From Gluconobacter potus (GTDB taxonomy: Bacteria > Pseudomonadota > Alphaproteobacteria > Acetobacterales > Acetobacteraceae): a stretch of DNA of 64,000 nt. The translations under genes were made by a program, and so were the position numbers. The stretch covers positions 62,001 through 126,000 of the forward strand of contig NZ_JABCQF010000005.1 in the NCBI RefSeq assembly GCF_015244705.1, read 5' to 3'. The notes under the pieces are model-generated. The model saw nothing but the letters and a program-made list of their open reading frames with translations. It did no database searches and was not told the origin of the DNA. This document shows, piece after piece, positions 15,462 through 53,206 of this stretch (positions within the stretch are counted from its first letter, which is position 1; every line of letters starts with the position of its first letter).

Positions 15462-16091
15462 ATGGATACCAACATTCTTGTTCTCTCCTTCACCGAGCAG
15501 AGCAAGGCTTTTCAGGCGTTTTCCGAACTGCGGGAACGGGCTGCAGACCAGAAGCTGGTCGTCATCAACGAGGCTGTCGTTGAACGCACCACGGACGGCA
15601 ACATCACCATTCATGACAACTGGGCCAACGGCTCTTCAGGCGAGCAGGTTCTGAACGGAACGCTTCTGGGCTCGCTCGTCGGGCTTCTTCTGGGACCGCT
15701 GGGCGTGCTTCTCGGGGCGTCCATGGGGGCGCTCGTTGGATCGAGCCTGTCGGTTGAGGATGCGGCGATCCGCAGCAGCCTTCTGGCGCAGATCGCCTCC
15801 GTCATTCCCGTGGGGACGACGGCCGTGATTGCGACGGTTCAGGAATATGTGCCGCAGGTCGTGGACGATCTGGCGGCATCGCTGGGTGCATCGCTGGTGC
15901 TGCGTCGGCCGATCGAGGCCGTGGAGCGCGAGGTCCTGGCCCAGCAGAAGGCCCAGGCCGCTGCCGCCGCAGAAGCCGGCCGTGTTCTGGTGCAGCAGCA
16001 TTCGACCGAATGGCACGAGCGCATGACCGACTGGCAGAAGCAGGTTTCGACCAGCCTTCACAATCTGAAGAACAGGATCACGGGCGGCTGA
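15462..16091 (+). CDS. DUF1269-family protein with glycine-rich membrane segment
   Basis: A 209-residue protein. It opens with a strand-helix segment (MDTNILVLSFTEQSKAFQAF), then an alpha/beta region up to about residue 60. A long Gly/Leu-rich hydrophobic hairpin lies at about 67-97 (GTLLGSLVGLLLGPLGVLLGASMGALVG), and the C-terminal half is a long Ala/Gln-rich helical tail (REVLAQQKAQAAAAAEAGRV). This architecture is that of DUF1269/TM-glycine-zipper proteins, whose function is unknown. The glycine repeats suggest close packing or oligomer formation in the membrane. Confidence 0.75.
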   Translation: MDTNILVLSFTEQSKAFQAFSELRERAADQKLVVINEAVVERTTDGNITIHDNWANGSSGEQVLNGTLLGSLVGLLLGPLGVLLGASMGALVGSSLSVEDAAIRSSLLAQIASVIPVGTTAVIATVQEYVPQVVDDLAASLGASLVLRRPIEAVEREVLAQQKAQAAAAAEAGRVLVQQHSTEWHERMTDWQKQVSTSLHNLKNRITGG

Positions 16092-50316: not shown

Positions 50317-51017
50317 GCGTGTTTCTGGCTTTCCAGCGTCCGGCGGAGCAGCGGTACCAGCTCGTCCAGATGCGTGATGCGGACGGAGCCTTTGACGGGC
50401 CAGAACGGGGGCAGGGGCACATCCTCGGGGCGAAGAAGCACACAGGCCATGCCGGCCTTCCAGGCCGCTTCCGCACCGGTATTACTGTCTTCGATGACGA
50501 CACAGTTTTCTGGCAGGACACCCTCGGCCTTTGCGGCGTACAGATAGACGTCCGGAGCAGGTTTGGGGCAGCCCATGTCATTGGCGGAATGAATGCGGTT
50601 TTCGGGGAAATACTGCGACATTCCGGTGCGATCGAACTTGGCTTCCATCTCCCGGACGGAAGAATTGGAGCCAACGCGAACCGGCATTCCCAAAGCCCGA
50701 ACGCCTGCCAGCATTTCGAGCGCTCCGCTTACGGGTTCTGCGCTTTTTCGCATCATCTGTACGAGATTTTCGCGCAGTCTGAATGCCGTTTCGTCTGGCA
50801 GGGAATGCCCAAGTTCCTGCTCGAGTTCCATCACGATCTGCGGCAGGGCCTTGCCTGCAAAACGCTTATGCGCCTCGTCATCCGAAATGGACAGCCCCTT
50901 GGAGCGGGCGAATTCCGCCGTGGCCCGGCAGGACGGGCCTTCGCTGTCCACGAGAACGCCATCGCAGTCGAAAATGACCAGTTTCAGCTGGCCTGCCGGG
51001 TCCAGGGCGGTTGTCAT
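50313..51017 (-). CDS. HAD-superfamily phosphatase (beta-phosphoglucomutase/phosphoglycolate phosphatase-like)
   Basis: A 234-residue HAD hydrolase with a C1 cap domain. Motif I is LVIFDCDGVLVDSEGPS (D-x-D), motif II VGSNSSVREMEAK, motif III a Lys in MGCPKPAPDVYLYAA, and motif IV VIEDSNTGAEAAWKAGM. The second Asp of motif I is kept, so it should be a phosphatase or mutase. The natural substrate is unknown. Its gene is sandwiched between hemE and hemJ with 4-bp overlaps at both ends, so it is made together with haem enzymes. Confidence 0.9.
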   Translation of the reverse strand: MTTALDPAGQLKLVIFDCDGVLVDSEGPSCRATAEFARSKGLSISDDEAHKRFAGKALPQIVMELEQELGHSLPDETAFRLRENLVQMMRKSAEPVSGALEMLAGVRALGMPVRVGSNSSVREMEAKFDRTGMSQYFPENRIHSANDMGCPKPAPDVYLYAAKAEGVLPENCVVIEDSNTGAEAAWKAGMACVLLRPEDVPLPPFWPVKGSVRITHLDELVPLLRRTLESQKHA

Positions 51018-52075
51018 ACCGAGCGTACCGCCTCGACGAGGGCCGCCACGTTTTCAGGTGGCGTATGCTGCATGACGCCGTGTCCGAGGTTGAAAACATG
51101 CGGTTTTCCGCGCATCGCGTCCCGGATGGCTTGGGCTTCGCGGATCATTGTCTCGCCGCCGGAGAACAGGATCATCGGATCCATGTTGCCCTGAAGCGTC
51201 AGGCCGGGGCGGACTTCGGAGACCAGCTCGGAGATCTGGACCGGGTCGGCGACGGTGTCGAGAGCGAGCGTGTTGACGCCGGTTTTCTGCGCATATTCGC
51301 GGACCATGATGCCGCCGAGACGCGGGAAACCGATGATCGGGGTTTTGGGATGCCGGGCGCGGATGTACTCGACGATCTGGCGCGTCGGCTCGATCACGTA
51401 GCGGCGGAAAGCGGAAGGCGGCAGGATTCCGGCCCAGGAATCGAACAGCATCACGGCTTCCGCACCGGCTTCGATCTGGCCGCAGAGCATTTCGGCGGTA
51501 CTCGAGGTCAGGGTATCGATCAGGCGATCGAACAGGGCCGGGTTGGTCTGCATCATGCGGCGGGTTTCGGCGAAATCCCGCGATCCGCCGCCCTCAACCA
51601 TGTAGCAGGACACCGTGAACGGACTGCCTGCGAAGCCCAGAAGCGTGGTGACGTCCGGAAGCTCTTTTGTGAGGCGGGACAAGGTCTCCCGCACGGGTGC
51701 GACGGCGTCCTGTACGCGCTTCGGGTCCAGTCTGGCGAGGTCGGCTTCGGAGCGGATGGCACCGAGCACGGGGCCGCGTCCGTCAATGAATTCAAGGGAC
51801 TGACCCATGGCCCAGGGCAAGATCAGGATGTCGGAAAACAGGATGGCGCCGTCCATGCCGTAGCGGCGGATCGGCTGGATCGTCAGCTCGGTGGCCATGT
51901 CCGGGGTCATGCACCGGGTCAGGAAGTCGGCCCTGTCCCGCATGGCGCGGAATTCGGGGAGATATCGGCCTGCCTGACGCATGAGCCAGACCGGAGGCGG
52001 CCAGATGGCTTCACCACGGAGGGCCCGCAGAAGCGGTTTCGACGAGGGTGAGGAAGGTGCGTTTTCCGAAATCAT
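51014..52075 (-). CDS. hemE: Uroporphyrinogen decarboxylase
   Basis: A cytoplasmic enzyme of 353 residues converting uroporphyrinogen III to coproporphyrinogen III in haem synthesis. Diagnostic are PVWLMRQAGRYLPEFRAMR (about 30-48), the catalytic-Asp region GAILFSDILILPWAMGQ near 83-99, and MLFDSWAGILPPSAFRRYVIEPTR. Its stop overlaps the HAD gene start, beginning a three-gene unit. ATG 52075 is used; a GTG at 52084 is in frame. Upstream lies the GTAC-rich intergenic region and, divergently, the second maf gene. Confidence 0.96.
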   Translation of the reverse strand: MISENAPSSPSSKPLLRALRGEAIWPPPVWLMRQAGRYLPEFRAMRDRADFLTRCMTPDMATELTIQPIRRYGMDGAILFSDILILPWAMGQSLEFIDGRGPVLGAIRSEADLARLDPKRVQDAVAPVRETLSRLTKELPDVTTLLGFAGSPFTVSCYMVEGGGSRDFAETRRMMQTNPALFDRLIDTLTSSTAEMLCGQIEAGAEAVMLFDSWAGILPPSAFRRYVIEPTRQIVEYIRARHPKTPIIGFPRLGGIMVREYAQKTGVNTLALDTVADPVQISELVSEVRPGLTLQGNMDPMILFSGGETMIREAQAIRDAMRGKPHVFNLGHGVMQHTPPENVAALVEAVRSV

Positions 52076-52084
52076 GCCGCCCAC

Positions 52085-52428
52085 TAATCATAAAAGAAAA
52101 AAGAAAGAAATGCTGGAGGTTAAGATGATCCCTGTGGATACCGGGGTACCCGGCTTTCTGAAAATGTACCCCGTCTTACTCACACTGTGTACAACTCCGG
52201 AAGCCGCACTTTGCAAGGGAGTCGTTGATTCAATCCCGAATTGCCCACAGAGAGCCTGTGTACAACCCCCAGTTCCGGCTGGTGTACCGTACAATCCACG
52301 GTACTCGGTACTCCTTTCGCAAGGGCAGGTACTATCCCCATGTACCCCAGTACTGACGCAATCTCTTCACCGGGTGATCCGCAGTACTCGTCCCTGTTCC
52401 AACAGTCGATAGTACGGAGTCGTACTTC
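52085..52428. other. hemE-maf intergenic region with 14 GTAC sites; possible origin-like or multi-site protein-binding region
   Basis: A 344-bp gene-free region. GTAC occurs 14 times between 52146 and 52425 (starts 52146, 52166, 52189, 52260, 52284, 52289, 52301, 52308, 52329, 52342, 52350, 52384, 52412, 52422); about one is expected by chance. Longer words recur: CTGTGTACAAC at 52185 and 52256, TGTACCCC at 52165 and 52341, and CGGTACTC twice with one-base overlap at 52299 and 52306. TGTGGATAC (52133-52141) matches 8 of 9 bases of a DnaA box and TTGCCCACA (52241-52249) 7 of 9. A purine/AT-rich tract lies at 52086-52111. In Caulobacter and some other alphaproteobacteria the chromosome origin lies beside hemE. 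The role here is not established. Confidence 0.55.
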
Positions 52429-53040
52429 ATGATGTCTTTCAGTACTTCCCTCATTCTTGCCAGCGGCTCTTCAGCCCGGCGCATGCTGCTCGAAAATGCG
52501 GGTCTCGCCGTGCAGGCCAGACCGGTCGATCTCGACGAGGAGGCGCTGCGGCGATCCTGCGAAGAGCAGGGGCATACGTTTTCCCAAACGGCCATCGCGC
52601 TGGCAGATGCGAAAGCCAATCTTGCGACGCGGGATGTGGGCTTTGATGAACTGACGGTCGCGGCAGACCAGATCCTTGATCTGGACGGGGTGGCGTTTGC
52701 CAAGCCGGGGTCTGTGGCCGAGGCGGCGGAGCATCTGCGCCGGTTGCGGGGGCGGACGCATGTCCTGCGCACGGCTGTCGTTCTCTATAAGGGGGGCGAG
52801 AAGGTCTGGGAGCATCTGGCGTCGCCGCGGCTGACGATGCGGGATTTCTCTGACGACTTTCTGAAGGCCTATCTGGAGCGGGAAGGGCCGGCGATCCTGT
52901 CCTGTGTGGGGGCGTATCGGCTTGAAGGCCCGGGGATACAGCTTTTTTCGGCTGTCGAGGGCGCTCAGGATGCCGTGATGGGTCTGCCGCTGTTGCCACT
53001 CCTGGAGGAACTGCGGGAACTGAAGGTCCTTGCGGCCTAA
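52429..53040 (+). CDS. Maf-like nucleotide pyrophosphatase (second paralogue)
   Basis: A 203-residue Maf-superfamily protein, divergent from the one at 12032. Visible family parts are LILASGSSARRMLLENAGL (with S-x-x-RR), VAADQILDLDGVAFAKP (AADQ in place of GADT), LRGRTHVLRTAVVL and SCVGAYRLEGPGIQLF. The AADQ and the GAYRLEGPG forms suggest a distinct Maf subgroup found near hemE and aroE in alphaproteobacteria. It probably hydrolyses damaged or modified nucleotides. A second ATG at 52432 is possible. Its promoter must lie in the GTAC-rich region. Confidence 0.88.
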   Translation: MMSFSTSLILASGSSARRMLLENAGLAVQARPVDLDEEALRRSCEEQGHTFSQTAIALADAKANLATRDVGFDELTVAADQILDLDGVAFAKPGSVAEAAEHLRRLRGRTHVLRTAVVLYKGGEKVWEHLASPRLTMRDFSDDFLKAYLEREGPAILSCVGAYRLEGPGIQLFSAVEGAQDAVMGLPLLPLLEELRELKVLAA

Positions 53041-53130: not shown

Positions 53131-53206
53131 GGGGCCATAGCTCAGTTGGGAGAGCGCCTGAATGGCATTCAGGAGGTCGTCGGTTCGATCCCGATTGGCT
53201 CCACCA
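53131..53206 (+). tRNA. tRNA-Ala (GGC)
   Basis: A complete 76-nt cloverleaf. The acceptor stem GGGGCCA/TGGCTCC has one G-T pair, the D-arm contains AGCTCAGTTGGGAGAGC, the anticodon stem CCTGA/TCAGG holds loop ATGGCAT (anticodon GGC), and the T-arm is CGGTTCGATCCCG. The 3' CCA is encoded. It lies between maf and the AGE-family gene, with no integrase nearby. Confidence 0.98.

Follow-up and report, generated by a model that had tools for sequence, protein, structure and literature searches.

The hemE-maf gap and its GTAC sites

The window, that is the whole 64-kb stretch of DNA that was analysed, contains hemE and maf as divergent neighbours separated by a gap of 344 bp (52085-52428). By direct count this gap holds 14 copies of the palindrome GTAC, and a 15th starts at 52442, within maf. 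The features of the locus are listed below, where the conservation of a site is given as the number of genomes that keep it among 21 aligned hemE-maf gaps of the window's genus.

51014-52084, minus strand: hemE (uroporphyrinogen decarboxylase; Pfam URO-D, E 3.7e-118), left border, divergent; start as listed GTG at 52084, with an ATG at 52075
52090-52111: A/purine-rich tract, read directly and conserved across genera; candidate DNA-unwinding element
52133-52141, minus strand: R1-like DnaA box GTATCCACA, 8 of 9 bases, position conserved
52146-52149: first GTAC, at an offset of 13 bases from the R1-like box start; kept in 21/21 and conserved more widely than any other site
52166-52192: GTAC 52166 and 52189, kept in 21/21
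52176-52184, plus strand: DnaA-like box TTACTCACA, 7 of 9
52186-52194: DnaA-like box, 7 of 9, at CTGTGTACAAC with GTAC 52189
52241-52249, plus strand: DnaA-like box TTGCCCACA, 7 of 9
52257-52265, minus strand: DnaA-like box TTGTACACA, 7 of 9, containing GTAC 52260; second copy of CTGTGTACAAC
52284-52292: GTAC 52284 and 52289, less conserved, kept in 19/21 and 14/21
52301-52311: GTAC 52301 and 52308 in tandem CGGTACTC, kept in 21/21
52329-52353: core block GTACTATCCCCATGTACCCCAGTAC, with GTAC 52329, 52342 and 52350 around a 7-of-9 DnaA-like box at 52332-52340
52375-52383, plus strand: DnaA-like box TGATCCGCA, 7 of 9
52384-52425: GTAC 52384, 52412 and 52422, kept in 21/21, 16/21 and 16/21
52429-53040, plus strand: maf (Pfam Maf, E 6.1e-40), right border, divergent
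53131-53206: tRNA-Ala (anticodon GGC), directly downstream of maf; sole match of the RNA family search

The 14 start positions given in a preliminary description of this DNA were all exact, and the nested repeats that it reported were found again, with two copies of CTGTGTACAAC 71 bp apart, two copies of TGTACCCC and two copies of CGGTACTC in tandem. The AT/purine tract that it mentioned is present at 52090-52111. As for the DnaA-like boxes, its 8-of-9 box was recovered on the minus strand (52133-52141), but the single 7-of-9 box that it announced turned out to be one of six.

The whole window contains 64 GTAC where 66.9 are expected, which corresponds to chance, and the high density is thus local to the gap. 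Dinucleotide-preserving shuffles of 52085-52428 gave a mean of 2.16 GTAC and a maximum of 8, and none of 20,000 reached 14. We also searched the window's own assembly for three GTAC separated by gaps of 0-30 bases. This pattern gave 18 forward matches, 11 of them in the hemE-maf gap, the last of which extends into maf. With only 7 matches elsewhere, the possibility raised in the preliminary description that GTAC is equally dense in other places of this genome is not borne out. Two more triple-GTAC groups lie within about 700 bp of each other in the same genome (G000:C6:147725-148440). In two relatives whose elements have 8 and 7 GTAC, 40 samples of 20 kb (800 kb) did not contain any 350-bp stretch with more than 4 GTAC. 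In one of the genomes studied, G174, GTAC was below expectation in 20/20 samples (6-18 observed versus 19-28 expected per 20 kb; L313-L332), yet 7 copies are found at its origin.

Conservation of the element in acetic-acid bacteria

Of 60 related genomes, 57 gave a match in a search for maf, from which 30 loci were obtained, including that of the window. hemE adjoins maf in 25 of these loci, the other 5 being loci where hemE lies outside the fetched sequence, and 24 of the 25 gaps (again with that of the window) carry 10-14 GTAC. In L028, the hemE-maf gap measures 1.1 kb and has 1 GTAC only. The cluster is therefore present in the hemE-maf gap of close relatives, its absence from which had been named beforehand as an argument against its significance. 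A 20-mer of the core block retrieved 59 genome_contigs loci, all labelled as Acetobacteraceae and belonging to Gluconobacter, Gluconacetobacter, Komagataeibacter, Asaia, Neokomagataea, Brytella, Swaminathania and Ameyamaea. All 59 display 11-15 GTAC beside hemE versus 0.4-2.4 per kb around, in a set selected by a 20-mer that itself contains two GTAC. Like a hemE-type oriC of alphaproteobacteria, the element lies beside hemE in a conserved gene order (beside hemE in 59/59 loci; 10-14 GTAC in 24/25 hemE-maf gaps). In three Neokomagataea loci (L055, L059 and L071) the element stays with hemE though the 8-kb locus yielded no maf.

At the scale of the family, the core 26-mer was found with at most 3 mismatches in 42 of 249 genomes. 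In a hemE-anchored set of 68 family genomes, 18 of the 20 genomes from the clade of acetic-acid bacteria (AAB), defined as the clade containing the window's genome, have 7-15 GTAC within 600 bp. Cross-genus alignments revealed invariant core sites in a surrounding sequence that drifts, with further GTAC at genus-specific positions. Sites also turn over, GTAC being found at non-homologous positions between genera. Within the window's genus, 10 of the 14 sites are kept in all 21 aligned gaps.

Over 18 AAB elements, GTAC is the top-scoring tetramer, with a 6.1-fold excess over the first-order expectation. The flanks of 186 GTAC sites carry at most 0.15 bit per column when both orientations are pooled and up to 0.30 bit in one orientation, so that the common denominator of the sites comes close to the bare 4-bp palindrome. 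Individual core sites keep flanks of their own, several of which resemble DnaA boxes. In the 21 gaps of the window's genus, 10/56 GTAC columns are variable versus 131/288 other columns (p 9e-5); when the immediate flanks of the sites were taken as reference (26/93 variable), the difference was not significant (p 0.17). Altogether, the palindromic tetramer GTAC is very probably the unit under selection within the element. Such a nearly bare 4-bp palindrome is no less compatible with a methylation site than with a motif for protein binding.

Position of the probable replication origin

G118 is a genome in two contigs, of which C1 measures 1.94 Mb. In bins of 10 kb, its GC skew switches at 903,000 from negative to positive values (-0.061 to +0.048). 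The cumulative minimum (500-bp bins over 160 kb) falls near 902,500, the curve forming a flat trough of 3-4 kb between about 899.5 and 903.5 kb. This trough covers the element, whose first GTAC, at 902,883, is about 400 bp from the nominal minimum. Over the whole contig, the skew changes in the opposite sense towards the contig ends, at a distance of roughly half a genome; a single sample, at 1.55 Mb, departs from this pattern. In this genome dnaA stands at the contig start, 0.9 Mb from the element. G174, which consists of one contig, has a local skew minimum 16 kb from the element, and in the window's genome the sign change is found some 36 kb off (near 78000 on contig C5 of G000, that is near 16000 in the window). 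Two of the three genomes thus place the origin here only roughly; in the window's genome a local inversion may account for the offset.

Like hemE-type origins, the gap contains a cluster of DnaA boxes, with one 8-of-9 and six 7-of-9 boxes. In G114, which is nested in the AAB clade, the gap from hemE to a Pfam-confirmed maf has 0 GTAC and 14 perfect TTATCCACA boxes (L367, 6576-6844). This array is unusually dense and canonical, and it belongs to a genome without the methyltransferase described below.

Since the element beside hemE is conserved, the skew trough of G118 covers it, DnaA-like boxes are present and the same gap holds a box array in G114, the reading as an origin is well supported. 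We conclude that the hemE-maf gap is almost certainly the chromosomal replication origin (oriC) of AAB, at the hemE position known from alphaproteobacteria. The preliminary description had proposed a multi-site protein-binding region, perhaps an origin: the second part of this proposal is consolidated by our analysis and the first is plausible only.

By analogy with SeqA, a second cluster was sought at the dnaA promoter. This idea was rejected, as the 17 dnaA loci analyzed in the window's genus have at most 2 GTAC within the 500 bases upstream and no cluster. Of the 17 genomes, 13 share one GTAC near the dnaA start codon, some 77 bases ahead of the match to the dnaA profile (L344-L362); its context in the window's genome is GGGGGTACAATG.

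One AAB genome paper puts oriC near dnaA (PMC3751514) and another puts it adjacent to initiation genes including dnaA (PMC13209655). Among the papers listed by our literature search, which covered only a minority of the subscription journals, none dealt with GTAC clusters at an origin or described an oriC beside hemE in AAB.

A candidate methyltransferase and a possible control of the origin

We then considered which protein could read or write the GTAC sites. According to the match list of a PF01555 search, all 26 genomes of the window's genus have a second enzyme of this family besides a CcrM-like one. It carries a TSPPYN (TSPPY) motif, and TSPPY is typical of N4-cytosine methyltransferases, N6 being possible too. 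No restriction gene was found beside the enzyme in the two loci read, and its neighbours in L126 are Tim44, MltA and a di-haem cytochrome c peroxidase. We regard the protein as a conserved orphan, i.e. stand-alone, DNA methyltransferase of the N4/N6 type. In G035, G112, G115, G157 and G190 its gene shares a contig with hemE, at a distance of 5-9 kb. The predicted structure is a moderate model (mean pLDDT 70.7, below 50 for residues 158-204). A fold search with this model gave as nearest structures M.BceJIV, which was the top match and which we take to be the GTWWAC enzyme of Burkholderia cenocepacia, a bdelloid N4-cytosine enzyme and CcrM, and these matches confirm only the enzyme class.

With a threshold of E 1e-40, the profile of the enzyme matched 111 of 249 family genomes, in 51 of 102 genera, and all 42 genomes with the core 26-mer are among these 111. 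At E 1e-70, 337 genomes of the class gave 4 matches, all in Acetobacteraceae, the output not giving the family members' share of the 337. This conserved stand-alone methyltransferase is our leading suspect for the GTAC reader or writer at the origin.

The link between enzyme and GTAC was examined in the hemE-upstream DNA of 60 family genomes, which were chosen by enzyme status and by whether a place of hemE was given for them in a listing of part of the matches, and which therefore do not constitute a random sample. Of the 33 enzyme-positive genomes, 14 have at least 4 GTAC per 350 bp, with GTAC as the top palindrome in 12, and the other 19 have just 1-3. None of the 27 enzyme-negative genomes reaches 4, their maximum being 3, and at least 5 GTAC at the origin were found in 0 of 45 enzyme-negative genomes. 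Within genus g42, three genomes without enzyme (G156, G210 and G252) have 3-4 GTAC versus 5 in one with enzyme (G066).

A finer mark is the first GTAC, whose distance to the start of the R1-like box is 13 bases both in the window and in 18/18 AAB elements. It was scored as present when a GTAC followed a TGTG/TGTT word at 12-14 bases, within 330 bp. This R1-adjacent GTAC is present in 40/41 positives and 7/27 negatives over 68 rows, and in 2/2 positives and 10/18 negatives of a further set, i.e. in 42/43 enzyme-positive versus 17/45 enzyme-negative genomes. The one positive genome without it is G212. A rule by which presence of the methyltransferase equals presence of the R1-adjacent GTAC was consequently rejected, in view of the 17/45 negatives that keep it and the 1/43 positives that lack it. 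Assembly gaps may hide the enzyme in some negatives (66-93% complete); several of the 17 are 96-100% complete, and incompleteness can hardly hide it in G156, G124, G195, G132 and G140 (97-100% complete, with 5% contamination in G195).

A hemE tree built by a quick method requires at least 9 changes of the enzyme and at least 4 of the R1-adjacent GTAC. An independent-pairs test on this tree, with 6 pairs on starred branches, gave no significant result (median p 1). Both the enzyme and the R1-adjacent GTAC are missing from one clade of 17 rows. In 9 of these 17, the same DnaA box is accompanied by GGGGAnGCA where the first GTAC would stand (G030, G064, G070, G077, G096, G107, G111, G136 and G155). 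G114 and G078, both nested in the AAB clade, as well as G164 from the genus of G078, are without the enzyme and have 0-1 GTAC at the origin, none of them R1-adjacent. In summary, every surveyed origin with at least 5 GTAC had the enzyme, and absence of the enzyme alone does not track absence of the R1-adjacent GTAC.

We propose a methylation-linked control because the orphan enzyme is present in 42/42 genomes with the core motif. Given this co-occurrence and a signal that is nearly a bare palindrome, methylation is the most likely single mechanism, and by analogy a control of the GATC/Dam kind, through GTAC and the orphan enzyme, is a tentative proposal to which we give somewhat less than an even chance. 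A dense, potentially methylatable palindrome is indeed found at the origin and is rare elsewhere, as in origins of the Dam/SeqA kind. Several results go against methylation: the R1-adjacent GTAC of the 17/45 negatives, the 19/33 positives with 1-3 GTAC only, genus g42, G212, the pairs test and the lack of a cluster at the dnaA promoter. The main rival is a dedicated origin regulator that would bind the GTAC sites and compete or cooperate with DnaA, independently of methylation. It would account for the survival of the R1-adjacent GTAC without methyltransferase in 17/45 genomes and for core sites that keep their own flanks across genera, for example GGGGTACC and CTGTGTACAA; however, a protein motif with so little information beyond 4 bp would be unusual, and we regard this explanation as rather doubtful. 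A lesser rival is that GTAC forms part of low-affinity DnaA sites, the preference of DnaA having shifted in Acetobacteraceae. Two boxes TTGTACACA do contain GTAC, G114 combines 14 canonical boxes with no GTAC, and the domain IV loop reads FGNRDH in 24/27 Acetobacteraceae DnaA versus FGGRDH in 5/5 outgroups. But FGNRDH is also found in genomes free of GTAC clusters, namely G114 and G085, G064, G030 and G028 from the 17-row clade; moreover, the R1-like boxes remain close to the canonical word and most GTAC contexts, compared by eye, are unlike a 9-bp DnaA box. As FGNRDH does not follow the presence of GTAC clusters, a change of DnaA specificity is kept as a minor rival only, which we consider improbable. 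In full, the domain IV segment is FGNRDHTT in 24/27 Acetobacteraceae sequences (L344-L346, L359 and L391-L413) and FGGRDHTT in 5/5 outgroup alphaproteobacteria; of the exceptions, G026 has FGDRDHTT, and G164 and G078 are one residue shorter (KF-ERDHTT).

Two other explanations dispense with replication or with function. The element stands between two divergent genes and could as such be a transcription control region of hemE and maf with a repeated operator. This is very improbable when confronted with the skew trough lying on the element in G118, the Neokomagataea loci where the element follows hemE in the absence of a detected maf, and the DnaA-box array that occupies the same gap in G114. 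An artefact of chance or composition is already refuted by the shuffles, none of which reached 14 copies, and by the 10-14 copies in 24/25 hemE-maf gaps.

To return to methylation, the mechanism that we propose is the following. DnaA would bind one fairly strong R1-like box and several weak boxes. The GTAC sites, interleaved with these boxes, would be methylated by the orphan N4/N6-type methyltransferase encoded beside MltA, and the hemimethylated or unmethylated state that follows fork passage could alter the access of DnaA or recruit a reader. Initiation would be limited as a result, in the manner of GATC, Dam and SeqA in E. coli. The joint explanation, an oriC with GTAC as the selected unit and a methylation-linked control, is the best that we can offer, although its chances as a whole fall a little below one half.

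A comparison with known origins helps to situate this proposal. Dam and SeqA limit initiation at E. coli oriC through GATC. The E. coli mnmG-mioC gap has 13 GATC in 378 bp, compared with 14 GTAC in 344 bp here; in both, a palindromic tetramer is densely interleaved with DnaA boxes, and the first GTAC has the same 13-base offset from its R1-like box as a GATC has, in E. coli, from where the R1 box TGTGGATA starts. However, AAB use another tetramer and another kind of candidate enzyme (PF01555, TSPPY), their element comes without a cluster at the dnaA promoter and its neighbourhood is hemE-maf. The Caulobacter-type origin also lies beside hemE and is under the control of CtrA and of CcrM acting on GANTC. 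A CcrM-like enzyme exists in the window's genome, with a score of 628.7 bits, which is below the NCBIfam CcrM cut-off of 830 bits. The AAB element has 3 GANTC compared with 14 GTAC, GTAC being the enriched word. The CtrA site is TTAA-N7-TTAA, and none was found in the window's element, in contrast with a CtrA-controlled origin.

In B. cenocepacia, one study reports that the orphan-methyltransferase motifs CACAG and GTWWAC are enriched at or near origins and at DnaA boxes (PMC7364216). The top fold match of the AAB enzyme relates our case to that one, but the motifs and the bacterial group are different and the AAB element has 0 GTWWAC. M.RsaI from the alphaproteobacterium Rhodobacter blasticus makes m4C at GTAC (PMC6256690). 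It constitutes a precedent by target motif and bacterial class, with the difference that the restriction enzyme RsaI comes from the same strain.

A bolder hypothesis, though an unlikely one as it stands, would be that AAB have evolved a methylation-directed control of their own, independent of Dam-SeqA, in which a GTAC-specific orphan enzyme, possibly producing N4-methylcytosine, and a reader would time DnaA, and that lineages losing the enzyme rebuild their origin from strong DnaA boxes. Whether the conserved GTAC code stands for a new kind of origin controlled by methylation or for a new regulator that binds the origin can be tested directly. G114, with its canonical DnaA-box array where relatives carry GTAC, represents a natural experiment in this respect. 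Finally, genome engineering in Gluconobacter and Komagataeibacter would benefit from a correct placement of oriC.
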